Shown here: in pieces, positions 32,120-45,462 of the stretch
Layout: each line of letters opens with the position of its first letter
How positions within the stretch are numbered: position 1 is the stretch's first letter
Origin: Paracoccus sp. SMMA_5_TC
GTDB taxonomy: Bacteria; Pseudomonadota; Alphaproteobacteria; Rhodobacterales; Rhodobacteraceae
Assembly (NCBI RefSeq): GCF_009696685.2
Contig: NZ_CP102355.1
Span: 1,331,001 to 1,395,000 of the forward strand
Length of the DNA stretch: 64,000 nt
Reading direction: 5' to 3'
Notes under the pieces: generated by a model
What the model saw: only the letters and a program-made list of their open reading frames with translations
Database searches by the model: none
Told to the model about the DNA's origin: nothing
Made by a program: the position numbers and the translations under genes

Positions 32120-32467
32120 TCACGGCTTCAGCACATGCCAGACGCCGCCCATGCCGTCGCCGGTGGCATCGCCCGGTTTCTTGTCGCCGATGTAGTAATA
32201 GGCCGGCTTGCCGCCATGGGCCCATTGCATGGTGCCGTCATTGCGCGGCACCAGTGTCCAGCCCGCGGGCATGGTGTCGCCCTGCTTGCCCAGATAGGGC
32301 GGCCAGTTGACCGCGCATTTGTCATAACAGGCCGAGACGCCGTCCTTGTCCTTGTCAAAGGAATAGAGCGTCATCCCGCCCTGACCGGTCAGGACCGTTT
32401 GCGCCTGTGCCGTGCCCAGCGACACGATCAACACGCCGGCCGCGATGAAAGCCGAAAAAATCTTCAT
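32120..32467 (-). CDS. Secreted COG4315-type repeat protein
   Basis: 115 residues. A signal peptide of about 22 residues ends near GTAQAQ. The mature part has the COG4315 pattern: GGMTLYSFDKDKDGVSACYDKCAVNWPPY and KPAYYYIGDKKPGDATGDG, ending GGVWHVLKP. No lipobox Cys is visible, so it is periplasmic rather than a lipoprotein. Function is unknown. It is monocistronic, with about 155 bp before xanthine phosphoribosyltransferase. Confidence 0.82.
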   Translation of the reverse strand: MKIFSAFIAAGVLIVSLGTAQAQTVLTGQGGMTLYSFDKDKDGVSACYDKCAVNWPPYLGKQGDTMPAGWTLVPRNDGTMQWAHGGKPAYYYIGDKKPGDATGDGMGGVWHVLKP

Positions 32468-32622
32468 GATCTTTCACCCCGCATCAGAATGCATCGGCGC
32501 CCTTGGGCCCGCGCCGCGCGACAAGGCGGGGTGCAGGACCTGGATGCCGTGGGGTGATGATAGCACGGCTTCCCCGCGCTGCCGGTAAAATTGCCGGCAT
32601 GGCAGCAGGGGCTGCGACCGGC

Positions 32623-36596: not shown

Positions 36597-36673
36597 CGGG
36601 GCGTAGCGCAGCCTGGTAGCGCGACGGTTTTGGGTACCGTAGGCCGGAGGTTCGAATCCTCTCGCCCCGACCA
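36597..36673 (+). tRNA. tRNA-Pro (anticodon TGG)
   Basis: A 77-nt cloverleaf: acceptor CGGGGCG pairs with CGCCCCG, the anticodon stem ACGGT/ACCGT encloses loop TTTGGGT (anticodon TGG), the T loop is TTCGAAT, and CCA is encoded at 36671-36673. It reads CCN proline codons. It is followed 8 bp later by the end of a tyrosine integrase gene, so its 3' part is the likely phage attachment site. Confidence 0.95.
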
Positions 36674-36681
36674 TCACTTAG
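36629..36681. other. Probable attL region in tRNA-Pro
   Basis: The integrase gene ends 8 bp from the CCA end of the tRNA and points towards it, the usual layout when a phage integrates into a tRNA 3' half. The exact core cannot be set because the right junction, which should repeat part of this sequence, lies outside the window. Confidence 0.5.
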
Positions 36682-37788
36682 CTATCGCTTGGGATCGCCG
36701 GTTTGCACGCCGGTTTGCAACCTTGTTCGGGATTCGGCCCTGTTCAGCTTCTCTGCCAGGCCGTCCGTCATCCCCGGAGAAAGTGCAACATAGCGTTCGA
36801 TCACCTCTGATGCGTGCTTGATCGACCAGCCCATGTGCGTGGCTATTTCCTTTAGTTCTGCGCCAGCGCTGAGCAGACGCGTGGCCGCCGTGCCGCGGGC
36901 ATCATAGAGGCGCAGTTCGCTGCGGATGTTCAGCTTGTCCCGCCATTCCGAAACCGCGTCCCCGAGATAGTTTTCATGCTGGTAGGGGTGGCCTGCCTTG
37001 TTGACGATCAGGCGCTGCTGGTGGGCCGGGGTCTGGGCTATCAGCTCGGCCATGGTTGCGGTGACCGGTATCGAAGCGAGCCGGCGGCGCTTTTGGGTCC
37101 AGATCACGATCCGATGTCCGTGCGGCGTCCTGTGGATGTGTTCGCGCGACAGATTGGCCAGGTCGCCCGGCCGCAGTCCGGTTTCCAAGGCGATGGCGAG
37201 GATGCGCCAGACGTGATTCGGCGCGTGCTTGCGGAACCTTTCGATTTCCTCGGGCATCCAGAAGATCTCTGCCCGCTGACTCTTGTATGTCGACTTGATC
37301 CCCATGAGGTGGTGTTGGCGAATCATCGCCCTGTCGAGGGCGAACGCCACCAGACGCTGCAGGTGCCTGATCCGGTCGTCGCCCACCTTGCCACCGATCC
37401 TGTCCCTCCAATCCAGTGCCTGGCGGCGGATACGGGGGTCGTCGAAGGCCGCCAGAGGTGCATCGCCGAACTTCTGGTCGATGCCGTTCGTCGGATGGAA
37501 GAACGATTTGCGCATATCGGACTGTGTTCGCTGCGCAAGGCCGCTGAAATCCTGGCTTTCCAGAAATCGCAGGATGACCGACCGGAACTTGCCTTTTGCG
37601 GGAGTGCTGATTCGCGACGCTCTGGCAAAGGCTTCGACATATTCGGGCGATCCGACGCGGACAGGGGATGCGCTGTCCCAGAACTTCACCGCGCCCTTGC
37701 CGCGACCGGCATAGTGGTGTTCGCGGACGCTGCCGTCGGCAAGCCGCTTTCGAACGCGGTTGATGCCTTGAAGCTTAACCCTGGTCAT
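36682..37788 (-). CDS. int: Phage tyrosine integrase
   Basis: 368 residues from MTRVKLQGI (a GAGG lies before this ATG; a start at 37809 is also open). The catalytic domain shows Arg in ALETGLRPGDL (about 206), the second Arg in RLYDARGTAATRL (about 298), His in ATHMGWS (about 318) and the Tyr nucleophile in VIERYVAL (about 333). The His usually preceding the second Arg (HDLRRT) is replaced by Tyr in LYDARGT. It performs site-specific recombination at tRNA-Pro. Confidence 0.93.
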   Translation of the reverse strand: MTRVKLQGINRVRKRLADGSVREHHYAGRGKGAVKFWDSASPVRVGSPEYVEAFARASRISTPAKGKFRSVILRFLESQDFSGLAQRTQSDMRKSFFHPTNGIDQKFGDAPLAAFDDPRIRRQALDWRDRIGGKVGDDRIRHLQRLVAFALDRAMIRQHHLMGIKSTYKSQRAEIFWMPEEIERFRKHAPNHVWRILAIALETGLRPGDLANLSREHIHRTPHGHRIVIWTQKRRRLASIPVTATMAELIAQTPAHQQRLIVNKAGHPYQHENYLGDAVSEWRDKLNIRSELRLYDARGTAATRLLSAGAELKEIATHMGWSIKHASEVIERYVALSPGMTDGLAEKLNRAESRTRLQTGVQTGDPKR

Positions 37789-37963
37789 TCGCCTCGAACC
37801 ATCTGTCAACTTCGGAAATACTGGTGCGGACAGCCTCGGGCAGGATACGGATTGTGCCGTCGGCCGTCACCTCGACGATCGCGCGCGCATCTGCCTGGCG
37901 CGCGACCTTCATGGCGCGGCGCAATTGCGCCTCGGTAAATGTAACACGGCGTCCCATCAGCAT
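37775..37963 (-). CDS. Small excisionase-like phage protein
   Basis: 62 residues from MLMGRRVTFTEAQLRRAM. A helix (TEAQLRRAMKVARQADARA) is followed by a strand-rich part (IVEVTADGTIRIL). It overlaps the integrase start by 14 nt. Small basic genes in this spot in Rhodobacterales prophages may act as excisionase or recombination directionality factor. The role is inferred from position and size only. Confidence 0.6.
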   Translation of the reverse strand: MLMGRRVTFTEAQLRRAMKVARQADARAIVEVTADGTIRILPEAVRTSISEVDRWFEANDQG

Positions 37964-39839: not shown

Positions 39840-39917
39840 CGACAAGACCGGATGACCGCGCGCGGCGAACGCGCGCCGCATCACCCCGGAAGTCTCGCAG
39901 CCGATCAGGATTCGCAC
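39840..39917 (-). pseudogene. 5' remnant of a phage DNA methylase-like gene
   Basis: From a GTG at 39917 the frame encodes RILIGCETSGVMRRAFAARGH, which closely resembles the N-terminal SAM-binding start of phage DNA-cytosine methylase-like proteins (ACE.SG..R.AF..RGH). The similarity ends after about 22 residues and the frame runs into the next gene. It appears to be a leftover of a deleted gene. Confidence 0.5.
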
Positions 39918-40315
39918 GGCATCACCTCACTGTCCTGCGGCATCTCGCCCTCATGCGTCGGCAGGTAGCCGTCGCCGTAGCCGTCGCCGTAGCCGTAGCC
40001 GTAGCCGTAGCCGTCGCCGTAGCCGTAGCCGTAGCCGTAGCCGTCGCCGTAGCCGTAGCCGTAGCCGTAGCCGTCGCCGTAGCCGTAGCCGTCGCCGTAG
40101 CCGTAGCCGTAGCCGTCGCCGTCGCCGTCGCCGTCGCCGTAGCCGTCGCCGTAGCCGTCGCCGTCGCCGTCGCCGTAGCCGTCGCCGTAGCCGTCGCCGT
40201 AGCTGCTATGTATCGCACTGCCCTGCTGGATCACCGGAACGCCCGGTGCGTCGTATGTCGCAGATGCTCCCTGATCGGCGATCAGGGAGGGGGCCTCGGT
40301 GCTGTCCGTACCCAT
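39905..40315 (-). CDS. Gly-Asp/Gly-Tyr dipeptide-repeat protein
   Basis: 136 residues. A 44-residue N-terminal part ending IHSSY precedes 39 consecutive dipeptides, each GD or GY (encoded at 39965-40198), then the tail LPTHEGEMPQDSEVMPCES. The repeat is acidic and aromatic, of very low complexity, and likely disordered or fibre-like; tyrosine-rich Gly repeats can phase separate or stick. The start lies 1 nt after the upstream stop. The reading frame is intact through 234 nt of repeats, which suggests selection or recent expansion. No function is known. Confidence 0.6.
   Translation of the reverse strand: MGTDSTEAPSLIADQGASATYDAPGVPVIQQGSAIHSSYGDGYGDGYGDGDGDGYGDGYGDGDGDGDGYGYGYGDGYGYGDGYGYGYGYGDGYGYGYGYGDGYGYGYGYGDGYGDGYLPTHEGEMPQDSEVMPCES
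39915..39971 (-). repeat. 57-nt direct repeat, copy B
   Basis: Identical to 39484-39540. It encodes the tail of the GD/GY repeat protein and abuts the dipeptide array, so the array probably grew from the GY codons at the edge of this duplicated segment. Confidence 0.9.
39965..40198 (-). repeat. Hexanucleotide tandem array (GGC GAC / GGC TAC)
   Basis: A run of 39 six-base units, each coding Gly-Asp or Gly-Tyr on the minus strand. Part of it shows a 30-nt higher-order period (one GD plus four GY). The array is perfectly in frame. Length variation by slippage is expected. Confidence 0.95.
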
Positions 40316-40631: not shown

Positions 40632-40764
40632 CAACAAGTCCTCTTTCTGCAAAGCCCGGAACCGCCGGGCGCGGTGTGAAAGGAAAGGTGCTGGCCGCTC
40701 CGGACACGGAAGGGAGGGAGGAACTCAAGCCAGAGCGGCCAGCCAGTGAGGGTGCGACAAGCGA

Positions 40765-40944
40765 TCAACGGCACCCATCTCGGGCGAGGGGCGGAACCCC
40801 CCGTTCATTCAGCGGCCGCCGCGCGTCGGCCAGCAGCTCGCGGATCTCGCAGGCCAGGGGCGTGTTGCCGATGGCCGGAACCTCGGCCAGCACGCGCTGG
40901 CACAACTCGATGGCGCGCAGATAGTCCGCCATCATCACCGGCAT
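40765..40944 (-). CDS. Small hypothetical phage protein
   Basis: 59 residues from MPVMMADYLRAIELC (later ATGs at 40935/40932 possible). A helical, acidic segment is AIELCQRVLAEVPAIG. No family was recognised. The evidence is the open frame with a plausible site GGGGGC before the start and its place in the early operon. Confidence 0.4.
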   Translation of the reverse strand: MPVMMADYLRAIELCQRVLAEVPAIGNTPLACEIRELLADARRPLNERGVPPLARDGCR

Positions 40945-40984
40945 GCCCCCGGCGAAAGCGCGCGGCGCCGATCTGCAGGCTTGC

Positions 40985-41371
40985 TCATGGCAAAAGCCTC
41001 GCCGAGCCCTCCGATAAAGCGACCCAGCCCGCCTCGCGCGCCTGCACGGCCGTGGGCGACAGAAGGTCCAGCACCGCTTGACCGTCCAGACGGCCGACCA
41101 GCAGGCCGATCCCCATCCCGGCGAGCACCAGCACCAGAACCCCGATCCAGATGAACACCACGCCCCAGGCGATCGGCCGACGATCGGAACCTCGGCCATC
41201 AGCCTCGGGAACCCCGTAGATCACGAAGGGGTCGCCGCCAGGCGCAAAGTCATGAACGGGAACGCCATCCTGCCGCCGATGCACGGCCCGCATGGCGATC
41301 TCATCCGCCTCGGCCTCGACCCGCCGCCGACGCGCACCCTCGACCGAGAAATGATTGCGAGCGGGGGTCAT
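40985..41371 (-). CDS. Hypothetical phage protein with one membrane segment
   Basis: 128 residues. A charged N-terminal half (RRRRVEAEADEIAMRAVHRR) precedes one TM segment (AWGVVFIWIGVLVLVLAGMGIGLLVG, split by Gly). It overlaps the next upstream gene by 4 nt. Function unknown; membrane location is predicted. Confidence 0.6.
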   Translation of the reverse strand: MTPARNHFSVEGARRRRVEAEADEIAMRAVHRRQDGVPVHDFAPGGDPFVIYGVPEADGRGSDRRPIAWGVVFIWIGVLVLVLAGMGIGLLVGRLDGQAVLDLLSPTAVQAREAGWVALSEGSARLLP

Positions 41372-41634
41372 GCTGCACCCTGAGGCTTGAACCGGACGGC
41401 GGACACATCAACCAGGTTGATCGCCACGGACCGCTCGGGCTGGCGAATGGCCGCAAAGCAGTTCGAAATCCCGTCCATGGGCATGTTGGCCAAGTGGCCG
41501 GACAGGGTGTCGGCGTCTTTCGCGCTGACGTTGCGGATCATGAGTTCCTGCCCATCGCGAAAACGCACAATCAGATCACCAGCAGCCGAAGCCTCGGCCG
41601 CCTGCGTCTCGGTCTTGAGGGGTGCTGTCGTCAC
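41368..41634 (-). CDS. First gene of the leftward early operon, hypothetical
   Basis: 88 residues; beta-rich core DLIVRFRDGQELMIRNVSAKD and RSVAINLVDVSAVRF. It is the first gene downstream of the predicted leftward promoter PL (-35/-10 around an operator at 41678-41693). It occupies the position of lambda N, but no Arg-rich antiterminator motif is visible. Function unknown. Confidence 0.6.
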   Translation of the reverse strand: MTTAPLKTETQAAEASAAGDLIVRFRDGQELMIRNVSAKDADTLSGHLANMPMDGISNCFAAIRQPERSVAINLVDVSAVRFKPQGAA

Positions 41635-41670
41635 CGGAGTTCTCCCAGTCGGCGGGGTGCCGATGGGTTA

Positions 41671-41699
41671 TCGTTACGCGGTCAGATTACCGCAGTCAA
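41671..41699 (-). promoter_or_regulatory. Predicted leftward early promoter (PL)
   Basis: On the minus strand TTGACT (41694-41699) is followed after exactly 17 bp by TAACGA (41671-41676). The 17-bp spacer is filled by operator copy OL1, so repressor binding would block RNA polymerase directly. It drives the early operon beginning at 41634. Confidence 0.7.
41678..41693. promoter_or_regulatory. Repressor operator OL1
   Basis: GCGGTCAGATTACCGC, a near-palindromic 16-mer sharing consensus with four other sites around the CI-type gene. It lies between -35 and -10 of the leftward promoter. Confidence 0.8.
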
Positions 41700-41707
41700 C
41701 AGAAAAG

Positions 41708-41723
41708 GCGGTAGTATGACCGC
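41708..41723. promoter_or_regulatory. Repressor operator OL2
   Basis: GCGGTAGTATGACCGC, the same 16-bp consensus, centred 30 bp from OL1, just upstream of the leftward -35. The spacing is close to three helical turns, allowing cooperative binding. Confidence 0.78.
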
Positions 41724-41813
41724 ATATCCGCTTCACCCATCTGATTCGCCCTGCTATCCTGCCCGCAGGGTGGGCGACGGTGCGCACCCGCCGGCGCCGG
41801 GCCACGGCGCATG

Positions 41814-41840
41814 AAAAAGCCCGCCGGGTGACGGGCTGGG
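41814..41840 (-). terminator. Rho-independent terminator after the repressor operon
   Basis: On the minus strand AGCCCG and CGGGCT pair around an 8-nt loop, followed by TTTTTC. It would stop transcription that comes from the repressor and the two downstream genes before it enters the leftward promoter region. Confidence 0.8.
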
Positions 41841-41979
41841 AGTGATGATGATCTGGTTCGGAAGGGATGTCCGAATCGTGAAGGGCTTCGGTTGCCGCTA
41901 CCGCGTTACTCGTTGGGGGTTCGGGTGCTGGGATGGTCTGCCTGGGTTGTCGAGAGACGCAAAAGGCTTCCAAGCCGGA

Positions 41980-42213
41980 TCACTTGAACCAGCCGATGAT
42001 CTCTTCGCGCATGATGACCGCGACGATGCCCAGCACATAGACCGTCATCCACTTGTAGTCGATCTTGCTATCCAGCTTGGCATCGATCCTTGCCATGGCG
42101 GCTTTCAGGTCGCTCGCGCTGTCCTTCAGGCTTTCGCATGCGGCCTTCAGGCTCCGAAGATCATCTCGGGCCGCATCCATCTGTGCTTCCAGCTTGGCGA
42201 TGCGAGGTTCCAT
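41980..42213 (-). CDS. Coiled-coil, C-terminally membrane-anchored phage protein
   Basis: 77 residues from MEPRIAKLEAQMDAARDDLR (an upstream in-frame start at 42306 is open). A long heptad-type coiled coil spans about residues 3-50, then KWMTVYVLGIVAVIMREEI forms one TM helix near the C-terminus. It resembles XhlA-like or DUF1640-like anchors. It is the last gene of the repressor transcript, in the place of lambda rexB. A membrane effector or exclusion role is a hypothesis from position. Confidence 0.65.
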   Translation of the reverse strand: MEPRIAKLEAQMDAARDDLRSLKAACESLKDSASDLKAAMARIDAKLDSKIDYKWMTVYVLGIVAVIMREEIIGWFK

Positions 42214-42298
42214 GTTTCCCCCAGGCGGTTCCCCGCCTTCTTTGCGCCTCTGAGGATGGGGTGTGCTGCCTGTATTGTCAACCTCAAGGCGCACATGC

Positions 42299-42571
42299 TC
42301 AGCCATCTGTCGGCTCCGTCTTCAATCCCATCGATTCCGCTGAAAAATAGACAATATTCCCGCAATTTCTGCAAGTAAGGCGCACTTTGGGGGCTAGGTA
42401 AGCAGACGTCAGATACTGACCCTCAGCATCATAGAACGCCTCCCCAAGGGCTGTGGGGAATATTAGCCAGTCCTGCTCGCCACAGTTCCAGCACGCTGAT
42501 TTCAGCCTTGTCGCGAGGCTTTGCTTGATCCTCGCCAGATCACTTTCGGCAAGTTTGCCTTGTTTGTCCAT
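42299..42571 (-). CDS. Zinc-ribbon phage protein next to the repressor
   Basis: 90 residues. Two CxxC pairs (SACWNCGEQDWLIF and LTCRNCGNIVYF) about 45 residues apart make a zinc ribbon around an extended middle (TALGEAFYDAEGQYL). It lies 12 bp after the CI-type gene on the same strand and just before the coiled-coil membrane gene, in the position of lambda rexA. Function unknown; a sensor or nucleic acid-binding part of a lysogen-expressed pair is conjecture. Confidence 0.68.
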   Translation of the reverse strand: MDKQGKLAESDLARIKQSLATRLKSACWNCGEQDWLIFPTALGEAFYDAEGQYLTSAYLAPKVRLTCRNCGNIVYFSAESMGLKTEPTDG

Positions 42572-42583
42572 TTTCTTGTCCCG

Positions 42584-43249
42584 TCACAGCCGCTCAACCA
42601 TCTCGGCCGGCAGCGCCAGCCTGACCCGCGCCGCCCACTTGATGCGCTGGTTGTGCCTGGTCTCCGAGGTCGGGTTCAGGCTGATCAAGTGGAACAGACC
42701 GGGCTCGTCGCCGCGCTTCACCTGCTTGACCCAGGCATTGCCCTCGGCATCCTCGACGATGCAGGGACGGCCGATGTCCTCCTCCGGGATGCCCTCATGG
42801 GTGGCGCGCGTGTAGAAAAGCACGTCGCCCGGCTGATACATCGGCACCATGGAATCGCCTTCGACCTCGACCGCAACGATCCCGCGCGGCGGACCGTGTC
42901 GCAGCAGCTGCGCCGGGGCGGCAACTCGGAAAAGGCCATCGCCTTTGGCGTAAGCATCAACCAGCGGGACCGCAGCGCCTGCACCAACTTGACCTGCAAC
43001 CGCAATCGATGGCCGATCCGGTCCCTCACCAATGCCGTGGATCAACCAGGTTTCTGAAACGCCGAGTGCGCTTGCTACCCCGGCAAGGGCTGTGACAGTC
43101 GCCCCCGCCTCCTCACCGCCTTCAGTTCGCCGCCGCCAGTTCCGGATTCCGTCTCGCGACAGTCCGGCCCTCAGCGAAAGCGCGTTATCCGTCAATCCCA
43201 GCTGGGCGCTGCGATCTGAAATACGCTTCAGGATATCTTTCATGGTCAT
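42584..43249 (-). CDS. Phage CI-like repressor with S24 (LexA-type) peptidase domain
   Basis: 221 residues from MTMKDILKRISDR. The N-terminal HTH is LGLTDNALSLRAGLSRDGIRNWRRR (about 18-42). The C-terminal S24 domain has Ser in EVEGDSMVPMYQPGD and Lys in GNAWVKQVKRGDE. It maintains lysogeny and would self-cleave under RecA, giving SOS induction. Five operators of one consensus flank its transcription unit. The long upstream in-frame reading is antisense to the Cro-like gene and was rejected. Confidence 0.92.
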   Translation of the reverse strand: MTMKDILKRISDRSAQLGLTDNALSLRAGLSRDGIRNWRRRTEGGEEAGATVTALAGVASALGVSETWLIHGIGEGPDRPSIAVAGQVGAGAAVPLVDAYAKGDGLFRVAAPAQLLRHGPPRGIVAVEVEGDSMVPMYQPGDVLFYTRATHEGIPEEDIGRPCIVEDAEGNAWVKQVKRGDEPGLFHLISLNPTSETRHNQRIKWAARVRLALPAEMVERL

Positions 43250-43265
43250 GCGGTCATTCTGCCGC
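43250..43265. promoter_or_regulatory. Repressor operator OR3
   Basis: GCGGTCATTCTGCCGC, the weakest palindrome of the set, directly abutting the repressor start codon, where it would affect repressor translation or its own promoter. Confidence 0.72.
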
Positions 43266-43283
43266 CTCATGCCGAACGCGGTA

Positions 43284-43299
43284 GCGGTAAGATGACCAT
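43284..43299. promoter_or_regulatory. Repressor operator OR2
   Basis: GCGGTAAGATGACCAT, with a conserved left half and a degenerate right half, centred 34 bp from OR3 and 23 bp from OR1. It ends at the -35 of the rightward promoter. Confidence 0.7.
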
Positions 43300-43327
43300 T
43301 GACGGCGCGGTCATATGACCGCATATC
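43299..43327 (+). promoter_or_regulatory. Predicted rightward early promoter (PR)
   Basis: TTGACG (43299-43304), a 17-bp spacer and a weak -10 CATATC (43322-43327). The spacer contains the perfect operator OR1, the same architecture as the leftward promoter. It drives the Cro-like gene and the rightward early genes. Confidence 0.65.
43307..43322. promoter_or_regulatory. Repressor operator OR1 (perfect palindrome)
   Basis: GCGGTCATATGACCGC is a perfect 16-bp inverted repeat and defines the consensus. It lies between the -35 and -10 elements of PR. Confidence 0.85.
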
Positions 43328-43333
43328 TATCTC

Positions 43334-43549
43334 ATGATTGAGATCGATGCCCTCATCTCCCGCGCTGACGCCTACAAGGCGGCATCTGGGATCGTGGATG
43401 ATACCACGGTGTCTTATCGCGTTTTCGGCGATACGAAGAAGCTCAGCGCCCTTCGCGCCGGAGCGGACATCACTGTGCGTCGCTTCAATCAAGCGATGCG
43501 CTGGTTTGATGATCACTGGCCCCGCGAAACCTCCGAGGACGCGGCATGA
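43334..43549 (+). CDS. Cro-like small DNA-binding protein
   Basis: 71 residues. The pattern ALISRADAYKAASGIVDDTTVSYRVFGDTKKL fits a degenerate HTH of a small phage family found beside CI genes in Rhodobacterales, ending in AMRWFDDHWP. It is the first gene of the rightward early promoter, so a Cro-like role is inferred. It partly overlaps an antisense extension of the repressor frame, which is not considered coding. Confidence 0.7.
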   Translation: MIEIDALISRADAYKAASGIVDDTTVSYRVFGDTKKLSALRAGADITVRRFNQAMRWFDDHWPRETSEDAA

Positions 43550-43629
43550 CCGTTCATCATCCCGCGCCCTCTTTCCGTTCTGGTGATCGTCCGTCTGCAC
43601 GCGGACACAACAGCACAGGATCATCTGAA

Positions 43630-43899
43630 ATGTCTTTCCGAAAATGCGGCGGCGAGGAGGCCGAGCGCGCCTGGTTCGCCGGGCTGCTGTGGCGGGCGTT
43701 CCCGGATGCCCGGAGCGAGAACGAACTGGCCGAGCTGGCGGCGGATGTGCTGACCTCGGACAGCCGCCCGGTGACGCCGCGCACGGTGCGCAACTGGCTG
43801 CGCCGCGAGAACGCCCCGCATTTCCGCTATGTGCTGAAGGTGATCGCGCTGGTCGGTGCCGAGTCTGTGTTTCAGGTCATCGATCCGGAGGTGCAGTGA
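43630..43899 (+). CDS. Small phage HTH protein (CII-like position)
   Basis: 89 residues from MSFRKCGGEEAERAW with AGGA upstream. SRPVTPRTVRNWLRRENAPHFRYVLKVIALVG looks like an HTH with its recognition helix at TVRNWLRR. An upstream ATG at 43546 overlapping the previous stop would add 28 residues of atypical codon use. It is the second rightward early gene; a regulatory role is inferred. Confidence 0.65.
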   Translation: MSFRKCGGEEAERAWFAGLLWRAFPDARSENELAELAADVLTSDSRPVTPRTVRNWLRRENAPHFRYVLKVIALVGAESVFQVIDPEVQ

Positions 43900-44051
43900 T
43901 GCGGATCTGGTGGCGCATCGCCCAGCGGTATTATGCGGCCCGTCACCGGCGGGCCGTGCGGCTGGCGGGGGCATCCTCCGCCGCGGCTGCCCGGTTCAAG
44001 TCGCAGTCGGAAAAGTTTTTCCACAAGATCAAGGGGGCGCGGAAGCAATGA
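43899..44051 (+). CDS. Short basic phage protein
   Basis: 50 residues, very basic (YAARHRRAVRLAGASSAAA). It overlaps both flanking genes (1 nt and 4 nt). No domain was recognised. Called on coupling and operon position. Confidence 0.5.
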   Translation: MRIWWRIAQRYYAARHRRAVRLAGASSAAAARFKSQSEKFFHKIKGARKQ

Positions 44052-44571: not shown

Positions 44572-44832
44572 TTACCCCAGCGCCTTGCGCAGCACCTCGT
44601 TCACGAAGGCACTCTTGTTGTCGAGCTTGTCGAGCTGGGCGGCAATCTCGGGCTCGATCATCAGGTTCATGCGCACTTTCCGCTCGGCGGCAGGCATGGC
44701 CGGGCGGCCGCGCTTCGCTGTGGCGAAAAACGTGTCGTCCAGTTCCCGGACCTCGCCGTCCTTGCCGATGAGAGCATCTCTGGCGGGCGAATTGTCCTGG
44801 CCGGAAGCGGCGCCGTTGTCAGTGCGCCGCAT
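44572..44832 (-). CDS. Ribbon-helix-helix antitoxin-like protein, third gene of the hicAB cassette
   Basis: 86 residues. An N-terminal linker (RGRPAMPAAERKVRMN) leads to an RHH-type segment (LMIEPEIAAQLDKLDNKSAFVNEVLRKAL). It overlaps the hicB stop by 14 nt and so is translated with hicAB. RHH proteins bind DNA as dimers. It may be an extra regulator or an orphan antitoxin; no third toxin is seen. Confidence 0.6.
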   Translation of the reverse strand: MRRTDNGAASGQDNSPARDALIGKDGEVRELDDTFFATAKRGRPAMPAAERKVRMNLMIEPEIAAQLDKLDNKSAFVNEVLRKALG

Positions 44833-45226
44833 GGATCTCCGCCCGTGCCGCCGAGGACAGGAACGCGCTGCGCGTCATGCCGCGCCGCGCCGCCTCGGCG
44901 TCGATGGCGTCCAGAAGGCCCGGGTCCAGGGAAATGTTCACCCGCTTGGGCGATCCGCGGTCCAGGATCAGGGCGACATGGGCGATCTGCGCCCCTTCGC
45001 GCCATTCGGCAAGGGCGGGATCGGCCAGGATATCGTCAACGCTGCGGGGGGCAGGGACGTCGAGGCCGTCCTCGCGCATGCCCTGGACGTGGAAAGCCAG
45101 CGCCTGCTCGCCGCGCTGGATGGCCTGCTCGACCGTATCGCCGTCCGAGATGGCGCCGGGAAAATCGGGGAAGCTGATGCCGAAGCCGCCGGCTTCGTCA
45201 GTATGCAGGAAAGCGACGTAACGCAT
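44819..45226 (-). CDS. hicB: HicB antitoxin
   Basis: 135 residues. The N-terminal HicB fold is MRYVAFLHTDEAGGFGISFPDFPGA with TVEQAIQRGEQALAFHV. The C-terminal RHH DNA-binding domain is RVNISLDPGLLDAIDAEAARRGMTRSAFL (split by Asp turns). It neutralises HicA and represses the operon through palindromes upstream. It lies 12 bp after hicA. Confidence 0.92.
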   Translation of the reverse strand: MRYVAFLHTDEAGGFGISFPDFPGAISDGDTVEQAIQRGEQALAFHVQGMREDGLDVPAPRSVDDILADPALAEWREGAQIAHVALILDRGSPKRVNISLDPGLLDAIDAEAARRGMTRSAFLSSAARAEIHAAH

Positions 45227-45238
45227 GCTGGTCTCCTT

Positions 45239-45427
45239 TCAGCGCCAACCGGCCTGTCGATAGATCGACATGACGGTGCCGGGTTTGATGTCCTTGTTCG
45301 GGTGCGGAACGGTCACGCGGCCGGGTTTCTCCGGGTGCTTGAACTGCCAGTGATCGCCCTTGACCGCGACCCGGACCCAGCCGTCCGCTTCCAGCATCTT
45401 GATCAGCTTCCGGCTGTTGCGTTCCAT
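45239..45427 (-). CDS. hicA: HicA toxin (mRNA interferase)
   Basis: 62 residues from MERNSRKLIKMLEADGW. The dsRBD-like toxin fold has the catalytic His in VAVKGDHWQFKHPEKPG and VTVPHPNKDIKPGTVMSIYRQAGW. It cleaves mRNA in a translation-independent way. The start at 45427 has GAGGGGCGGAA upstream; the longer frame includes the operators and was rejected. Confidence 0.93.
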   Translation of the reverse strand: MERNSRKLIKMLEADGWVRVAVKGDHWQFKHPEKPGRVTVPHPNKDIKPGTVMSIYRQAGWR

Positions 45428-45442
45428 TTCCGCCCCTCTTTC

Positions 45443-45462
45443 TTGTGTATACTGATACACAA
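45443..45462. promoter_or_regulatory. hicAB operator 1
   Basis: TTGTGTAT and ATACACAA form a perfect 8-bp inverted repeat around ACTG, about 16 bp before the hicA start. It overlaps a probable -10 (TATCAG on the minus strand). Confidence 0.75.

Follow-up and report, generated by a model that had tools for sequence, protein, structure and literature searches.

The window analysed here, a 64,000-nucleotide (nt) stretch of the Paracoccus sp. SMMA_5_TC genome (contig NZ_CP102355.1, positions 1,331,001 to 1,395,000), carries a prophage of ~41.9 kb that is inserted in tRNA-Pro and whose right end lies past the window end; our subject is the putative immunity region of this prophage. The repressor gene cI (42584..43249, minus strand) encodes a protein of 221 amino acids (aa) with an N-terminal helix-turn-helix (HTH) and an S24 domain (Pfam PF00717, 39.5 bits against a cut-off of 23.3), in agreement with the LexA-type repressor that a first-pass annotation of this DNA had placed there. 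Its recognition motif is SRDGIRN37WRR, and the residues assigned to self-cleavage are A85-G86, S133, and K175; G86, S133, and K175 are invariant among 18 S24 relatives, A85 is not. To its right lies a 71-aa Cro-like gene (43334..43549, plus strand; PHROG 7669, no Pfam match), which is predicted to be leaderless.

Five 16-bp sites of one type, two to the left and three to the right of the repressor gene, can be read directly in the sequence, as the first-pass annotation had claimed. The left operator (OL) sites are GCGGTCAGATTACCGC (41678..41693), located in the spacer of the leftward early promoter (PL), and GCGGTAGTATGACCGC (41708..41723), located upstream of PL and 30 bp from the first. Among the right operator (OR) sites, OR3 (43250..43265, GCGGTCATTCTGCCGC) adjoins the start codon of cI and would contain the –10 box (CAGAAT, minus strand, 43261-43256) of the promoter for repressor maintenance (PRM), OR2 (43284..43299, GCGGTAAGATGACCAT) shares one base with the –35 box of the rightward early promoter (PR), and OR1 (43307..43322, GCGGTCATATGACCGC), the best copy and a perfect palindrome, lies in the PR spacer. 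Predicted PL (41671..41699, minus strand) consists of TTGACT (41699-41694), a 17-bp spacer, and TAACGA (41676-41671), and predicted PR (43299..43327, plus strand) of TTGACG (43299-43304), a 17-bp spacer, and CATATC (43322-43327), so the operator fills the spacer in both early promoters. The –10 box is weak in both cases, and neither promoter was listed by a sigma-70 consensus scan, so that the assignment of the two rests on the conserved TTGAC and the spacing. A predicted intrinsic terminator of the repressor transcript (41818..41837, minus strand; an 8-bp stem followed by TTTTT) precedes PL, again as first annotated; with shuffled sequence as the reference, its 56-nt stretch has the better fold (z score, –2.36), and the 2.9 kb that contain it have four terminator-like sites in all, against 1.8 in shuffles.

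A search of the window with the perfect copy, allowing up to 3 mismatches, returned four matches, namely, three of the five sites and a fourth at 32299, which is not in the prophage; the expected number was 0.55, and none of 100 shuffles reached four. At 43250 and 43284, the match to the perfect copy fails at four positions each, too many for the window by itself to establish these two sites; they need outside evidence, and it is comparison only that rescues them. Across the whole genome (3.12 Mb), the same search, which the first-pass annotation had expected to hit the prophage only, gave 29 places versus 24 for the reversed control; there is no general excess, and the check therefore does not separate signal from noise. 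With up to 2 mismatches, four places were found, three of them these sites and the fourth at C1:1153443, and the pattern CGGTHDNNHDACCG occurs at 11 genome places, three of them here (its reversed control, which differs in base order, has 77).

We gathered 62 loci by means of the 71-aa gene, and removal of 15 near-identical ones left 47 non-redundant loci, the window included. Within 130 nt upstream of the 71-aa gene, CGGTN6ACCG (at least 7 of 8 positions matching) occurs exactly three times in 32 of the 47 loci, twice in 8, once in 2, and not at all in 5, whereas 100 shuffles of these upstream regions gave a mean of 0.03 loci with two sites and none with three. The geometry is equally regular: among the 32 three-site loci, OR1 and OR2 are 23 or 24 bp apart in 28, and OR2 and OR3 are 34 or 35 bp apart in all 32. 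A matrix was then built from 111 right-operator sites of other loci, with the window left out and no OL site in training; in the 64 kb it ranks the window's five sites 1 (41678), 2 (43307), 3 (41708), 5 (43284), and 9 (43250). At 11 bits or more, the same matrix marks 72 sites on the repressor side, where 128,785 nt were scanned, and 2 on the cro side, where 139,767 nt were scanned (stretches of 0.9 to 10.7 kb; 6 kb for the window), with at least two on the repressor side in 31 of the 47 loci. Neighbouring left sites 20 to 40 bp apart form 33 pairs from 31 loci, and 32 of these pairs have a spacing of 27 to 31 bp. TTGAC lies between OR2 and OR1 in 35 of 40 cases, and in 22 of 33 left pairs it separates the two OL sites. 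Clustering by chance is ruled out by the window search, the shuffles of the 47 loci, and the matrix ranks. From these comparisons of sequence, the operator is one allele of a conserved and widespread switch scaffold in alphaproteobacterial phages. It had first been described as new; it is not unique to this phage and belongs to a large class. No paper of the open-licence literature searched (most subscription papers and supplements lie outside this scope) contains CGGTAAAATAACCG, CGGTAAGATAACCG, or any of three spellings of the consensus. The matrix also scores CCGGTAAAATTGCCGG at 32582-32597, outside the prophage, as a good match (14.1 bits), which could be chance or a host site.

The operators go with the HTH of the repressor. 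In loci L016, L026, and L044 to L047, whose repressors share the HTH, three right sites stand next to the cI start at positions that agree within a base or two; the repressors of L044 to L047 have only 116 to 124 aa and keep the sites though they are too short for an S24 domain, which argues that the operators belong to the HTH. All seven HTH-sharing loci have two or three sites (six of the seven were in matrix training), versus none of 23 S24-only loci (several of them near-identical) with a site of at least 9 bits within 400 nt before the matched start, so that operators following the S24 domain can be ruled out. Among 81 repressors measured, 19 are short (<165 aa) and lack the S24 serine motif, yet keep the operators; a simple pattern finds this motif in 43 of 62 long repressors. 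Short repressors, those of L044 to L047 and others, thus use the same operators as S24-bearing ones. A search of PDB sequences with the repressor alone gave no match, and the HTH alignment A1 gave four weak ones: 434 repressor (E value, 0.018; last helix only), P22 c2 repressor (0.04 and 0.08), and the unrelated gamma-glutamyltranspeptidase (0.039). The weak P22 c2 profile match sets R36-N37-W38 on S-Q-W of the P22 c2 HTH, with residue 37 opposite the glutamine.

The letters of the half-site can be compared with the residues of the two proteins in a larger set. Starting from 218 loci with the 71-aa gene, 11 without a matching cI were dropped, and the 207 with the gene pair were reduced to 147 non-redundant loci by removing 60 that were near-identical or had less than 90 nt upstream; of the 206 and 199 candidate loci in two further scans, the best 80 of each were retained. 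The half-site of each locus was chosen as the best of 256 possible, blind to the known operator. A triple at the expected spacing was found in 83 of the 147 loci, including the window (64 were without), and the half-sites were CGGT in 66, CGGA in 5, CGGG in 5, and five other kinds in 7. Shuffle-corrected mutual information with the half-site was 0.78 for repressor residue 37, compared with 0.39 for the next cI column and 0.35 for the best Cro column (67 repressor and 73 Cro columns, 83 loci), which disfavours Cro as the specificity-setting partner; for base 4 alone, the values were 0.61, 0.40, and 0.30. When residue 37 is N, base 4 is T in 66 loci and another base in 1; when it is not N, base 4 is T in 1 and another base in 15. 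A Fisher value for this table is not to be taken literally because relatedness was only roughly handled, with about 8 residue changes on the tree. Repressors with 50% identity or more were also compared two by two: where residue 37 is the same, 2 of 174 pairs have unlike half-sites, and where it is not, 36 of 40 do; for position 59, the next of the 67 columns in this test, the counts are 30 of 204 and 4 of 6, respectively.

A looser filter covers 127 of the 147 loci and, with R36 kept, gives 86 and 1 for N, and 8 and 24 for the other residues. Of the eight loci with T but without N, five have unrelated half-sites (AGAT in four, CGCT in one), two have best words judged spurious (TTTT in L150; ATGT in L099, where CGGG comes second), and L230, with S and CGGT, is a plain exception to the rule. 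Taken as they stand, these comparisons make a one-residue recognition code at repressor residue 37 likely. Ten distant homologues of the gene pair (L052, L053, L054, L057, L133, L135, L136, L140, L143, and L167) have other operators, several at similar positions; they are of the TGCAT type (by eye) and of the AGAT and AGCC types (by half-site search) and could supply further alleles for a wider code.

The residue-37 rule also fits five named phages with records outside the set. Rhizobium phage RHph_N3_2, Pelagibaca phage vB_PeaS-P1, and Thiobacimonas phage vB_ThpS-P1 have a homologue of the 71-aa protein (39 to 48% identical), an [IL]RN repressor, hence N at residue 37, and three GGT...ACC-type sites upstream of the homologue, and RHph_N3_2 in addition has two left sites spaced by 29 bp; no operator is annotated in the stretches examined. 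Acetobacter phage phiAX1 and Rhizobium phage RR1-A are alike in the gene pair and the three upstream sites and differ in their letters: phiAX1 has IRD (D at residue 37), CGGG in most half-sites, and OR1 and OR2 34 bp apart, and RR1-A has LRK (K at residue 37) and CGTA in most half-sites. Locus L123, counted in the 147 and the 127 loci but not in the 83, is identical to vB_ThpS-P1; the other four phages are without a near-identical locus.

Paracoccus phage vB_PbeS_Pben1 (Pben1; MK291441) matches the window DNA on both sides of the region. The identity is 75.8% over 40648-41836, a stretch that includes the left operators, and rises to 91.6% over 43529-44051 and 93.1% over 44807-45462. It shares the layout of two plus three operators (three right copies and two left ones, the left read by eye) but has another CI and another Cro, and all five of its operators are of the TGCGAT/ATCGCA type. 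To judge from this alignment, the Pben1 region looks like a heteroimmune allele in which repressor, Cro, and the five operators differ together as one immunity type.

The positions of the sites also bear on how cI and the 71-aa gene would be transcribed. The distance from TTGAC to the cro ATG is 34 to 40 nt in 61 of 78 loci (35 in 31 of them), and because a 17-bp spacer at this distance puts the transcript start on the ATG, the cro mRNA would be leaderless; a Shine-Dalgarno-like motif precedes cro in 14 of the 83 loci. Since OR3 adjoins the cI start, its A+T core would be the –10 box of PRM, cI would likewise be leaderless, and the centre of OR2 would lie at –42.5. The 71-aa protein is predicted to be the Cro counterpart on the basis of its position and a weak fold match: its model has four helices (predicted local distance difference test score, 89), and among the matches listed, the closest solved structures are mostly lambda-repressor-like HTH domains with low scores. 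The family has at least 345 members and matched one PDB sequence (E value, 0.6); among the 120 homologues listed, those with a name are hypothetical or uncharacterized proteins (alignment A3 combines the window's protein with 66 of these 120; 345 were found). One of them, the 142-aa P0075, is the only one of the 120 with any Pfam domain (precomputed PF01381/PF13560 HTH domains), and it may be a fusion of relevance to the Cro assignment.

Lambda is the obvious reference. The immunity region of lambda comprises cI, cro, OL, and OR, only cI transcribed from PRM is leaderless, and the centre of OR2 lies near –42 relative to PRM. The window resembles it in the order of leftward gene, PL/OL, rex-position genes, cI, OR, and cro, in having three OR sites with OR1 and OR2 23 bp apart, in an OR2 centre near –42 of PRM, and in an S24-type repressor. 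It differs in the operator sequence and the Cro family, in having two OL sites where lambda has three, in the 34 bp between OR2 and OR3, and in the prediction that both cI and cro are leaderless. To our knowledge, operator sets have been worked out for few phages outside enterobacteria. A studied alphaproteobacterial phage repressor with PL and PR is the C repressor of Sinorhizobium phage 16-3, the subject of a PNAS paper in 2002. The operator of 16-3 is reported to be ACAA...TTGT and related to that of 434. In the portions of text available, the Paracoccus virome paper (PMC6536676) names CI and Cro and has the word "operator" zero times, and PMC5488378 likewise has it zero times.

We are highly confident, as far as DNA comparison can carry us, that the region serves the temperate prophage as an immunity region of the lambda kind, with an OL/OR-type switch. 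The first-pass annotation was right in substance on this point: the layout, the spacings, and the overlap of operators with promoters are seen again in dozens of loci. Comparison among loci has shown the predicted sites and how they are arranged, ties them to the HTH and to residue 37, and finds another set at the corresponding places in Pben1. For the working of the switch, we infer repressor binding, PRM activation, SOS cleavage, Cro function, cooperativity, and OL-OR looping. The repressor would bind as a dimer through its N-terminal HTH to the CGGTN6ACCG palindromes, two at PL and three at PR; because the sites sit in the promoter spacer and at the –35 box, repressor on OL and on OR1/OR2 would block RNA polymerase at PL and PR. 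If the cI mRNA is leaderless, OR2 stands at the position of lambda OR2 relative to PRM and therefore probably also activates cI, and occupancy of OR3, adjoining the cI start codon, would lead to autorepression. The 71-aa protein would act as Cro, made from leaderless mRNA, and upon DNA damage, RecA-aided self-cleavage of the S24 domain at A85-G86 (S133/K175) would release the early operons.

Other readings of the same sites have to be weighed against this lambda-like switch. The most serious, although we consider it unlikely, is that only the three best sites work and that 43250 and 43284 are chance or degenerate copies, leaving simple repression without OR3 or OR2 function; the four mismatches of each to the perfect copy and their lower matrix scores speak for it, but relatives have sites in the same two places at fixed spacing, with the OR2-OR3 distance constant to within a base in every three-site locus. 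It is very improbable that the 71-aa protein, or some other factor, is what chiefly occupies the sites while the repressor acts elsewhere. The sites are equally tightly linked to the 71-aa gene, which was the means of collecting most loci, and Cro and CI are expected to share sites; however, the half-site tracks cI residue 37 more closely than it does any Cro column (0.78 versus at most 0.35), and the sites go with the cI HTH. Scattered matches in the host genome could suggest left-over or host-regulator sites in a defective prophage, which we regard as the least credible reading of all, given that the sites cluster only here, that the att repeat, the integrase, and an intact repressor frame are present, and that a viral contig (L019), which may be of the same strain, has the same repressor and upstream DNA.

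Further features of the prophage surround the lambda-like switch. The left attachment site core (attL; 36633..36674, no strand) is a 42-bp repeat at the 3' end of tRNA-Pro(TGG), with its second copy at window coordinate 78546 (C1:1409546), and a tyrosine integrase (36682..37809, minus strand; Pfam PF00589) follows it. The predicted leftward early transcript begins with an 88-aa gene (41368..41634, minus strand), the counterpart of p18 in Pben1. At the predicted 5' end of this transcript (41634-41666), a candidate hairpin of the CATCG..CGATG kind stands directly before the Shine-Dalgarno sequence, and the stem recurs with differing sequence in L016, L046, L047, L060, L063, and L095; its mean z score against plain base shuffles is –0.99 (18 of 31 under –1), and another cut of the window's PL leader scores –0.41 against dinucleotide shuffles. 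The second gene of the rightward early operon encodes 117 aa (43546..43899, plus strand), overlaps the 71-aa gene, and lies in a stretch that the window shares with Pben1 and Psul1. Downstream of the repressor are a 90-aa gene (42299..42571, minus strand; weak match to PHROG 4293) and, in a rex-like position, a 108-aa gene (41980..42306, minus strand; PHROG 3556). These two small genes between repressor and terminator (41980-42571) occupy the rexAB position and are candidates for expression in lysogeny; one of them ends in a hydrophobic stretch (by eye). The 108-aa gene has weak PADLOC matches to DpdH (E value, 2e-4) and LmuB (0.007), and no other gene matched. None of the nine genes scanned was assigned an N, CII, or Q function, for which no systematic search was made, and the description of the circuit as complete therefore went too far. 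Elsewhere in the prophage, the hexamer GTAGCC occurs in ~40 tandem copies at 39965-40203, inside a minus-strand open reading frame (39905-40315); if translated, it would give a repeat protein of the Gly-Tyr-Gly-Asp type whose length could change by whole units.

In a broader sense, we lean, with modest confidence, toward the view that temperate phages of alphaproteobacteria share one fixed scaffold (set spacings between two left and three right operators, cI and cro both leaderless, and an unnamed Cro family), in which the immunity type would be set largely by repressor residue 37: N for CGGT, D for GGG, S for GGA or GGG, and K for CGTA or CGGA. The 71-aa family gains a likely function from this work, and the natural repressor-operator pairs are material for the question of how an HTH changes its specificity while the promoter geometry stays. 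If the residue-37 code is true, superinfection immunity groups would be readable from sequence, and those of alphaproteobacterial phages would become predictable, with operator positions, operator letters, and the matching repressor residue, for dozens of uncharacterised phages.

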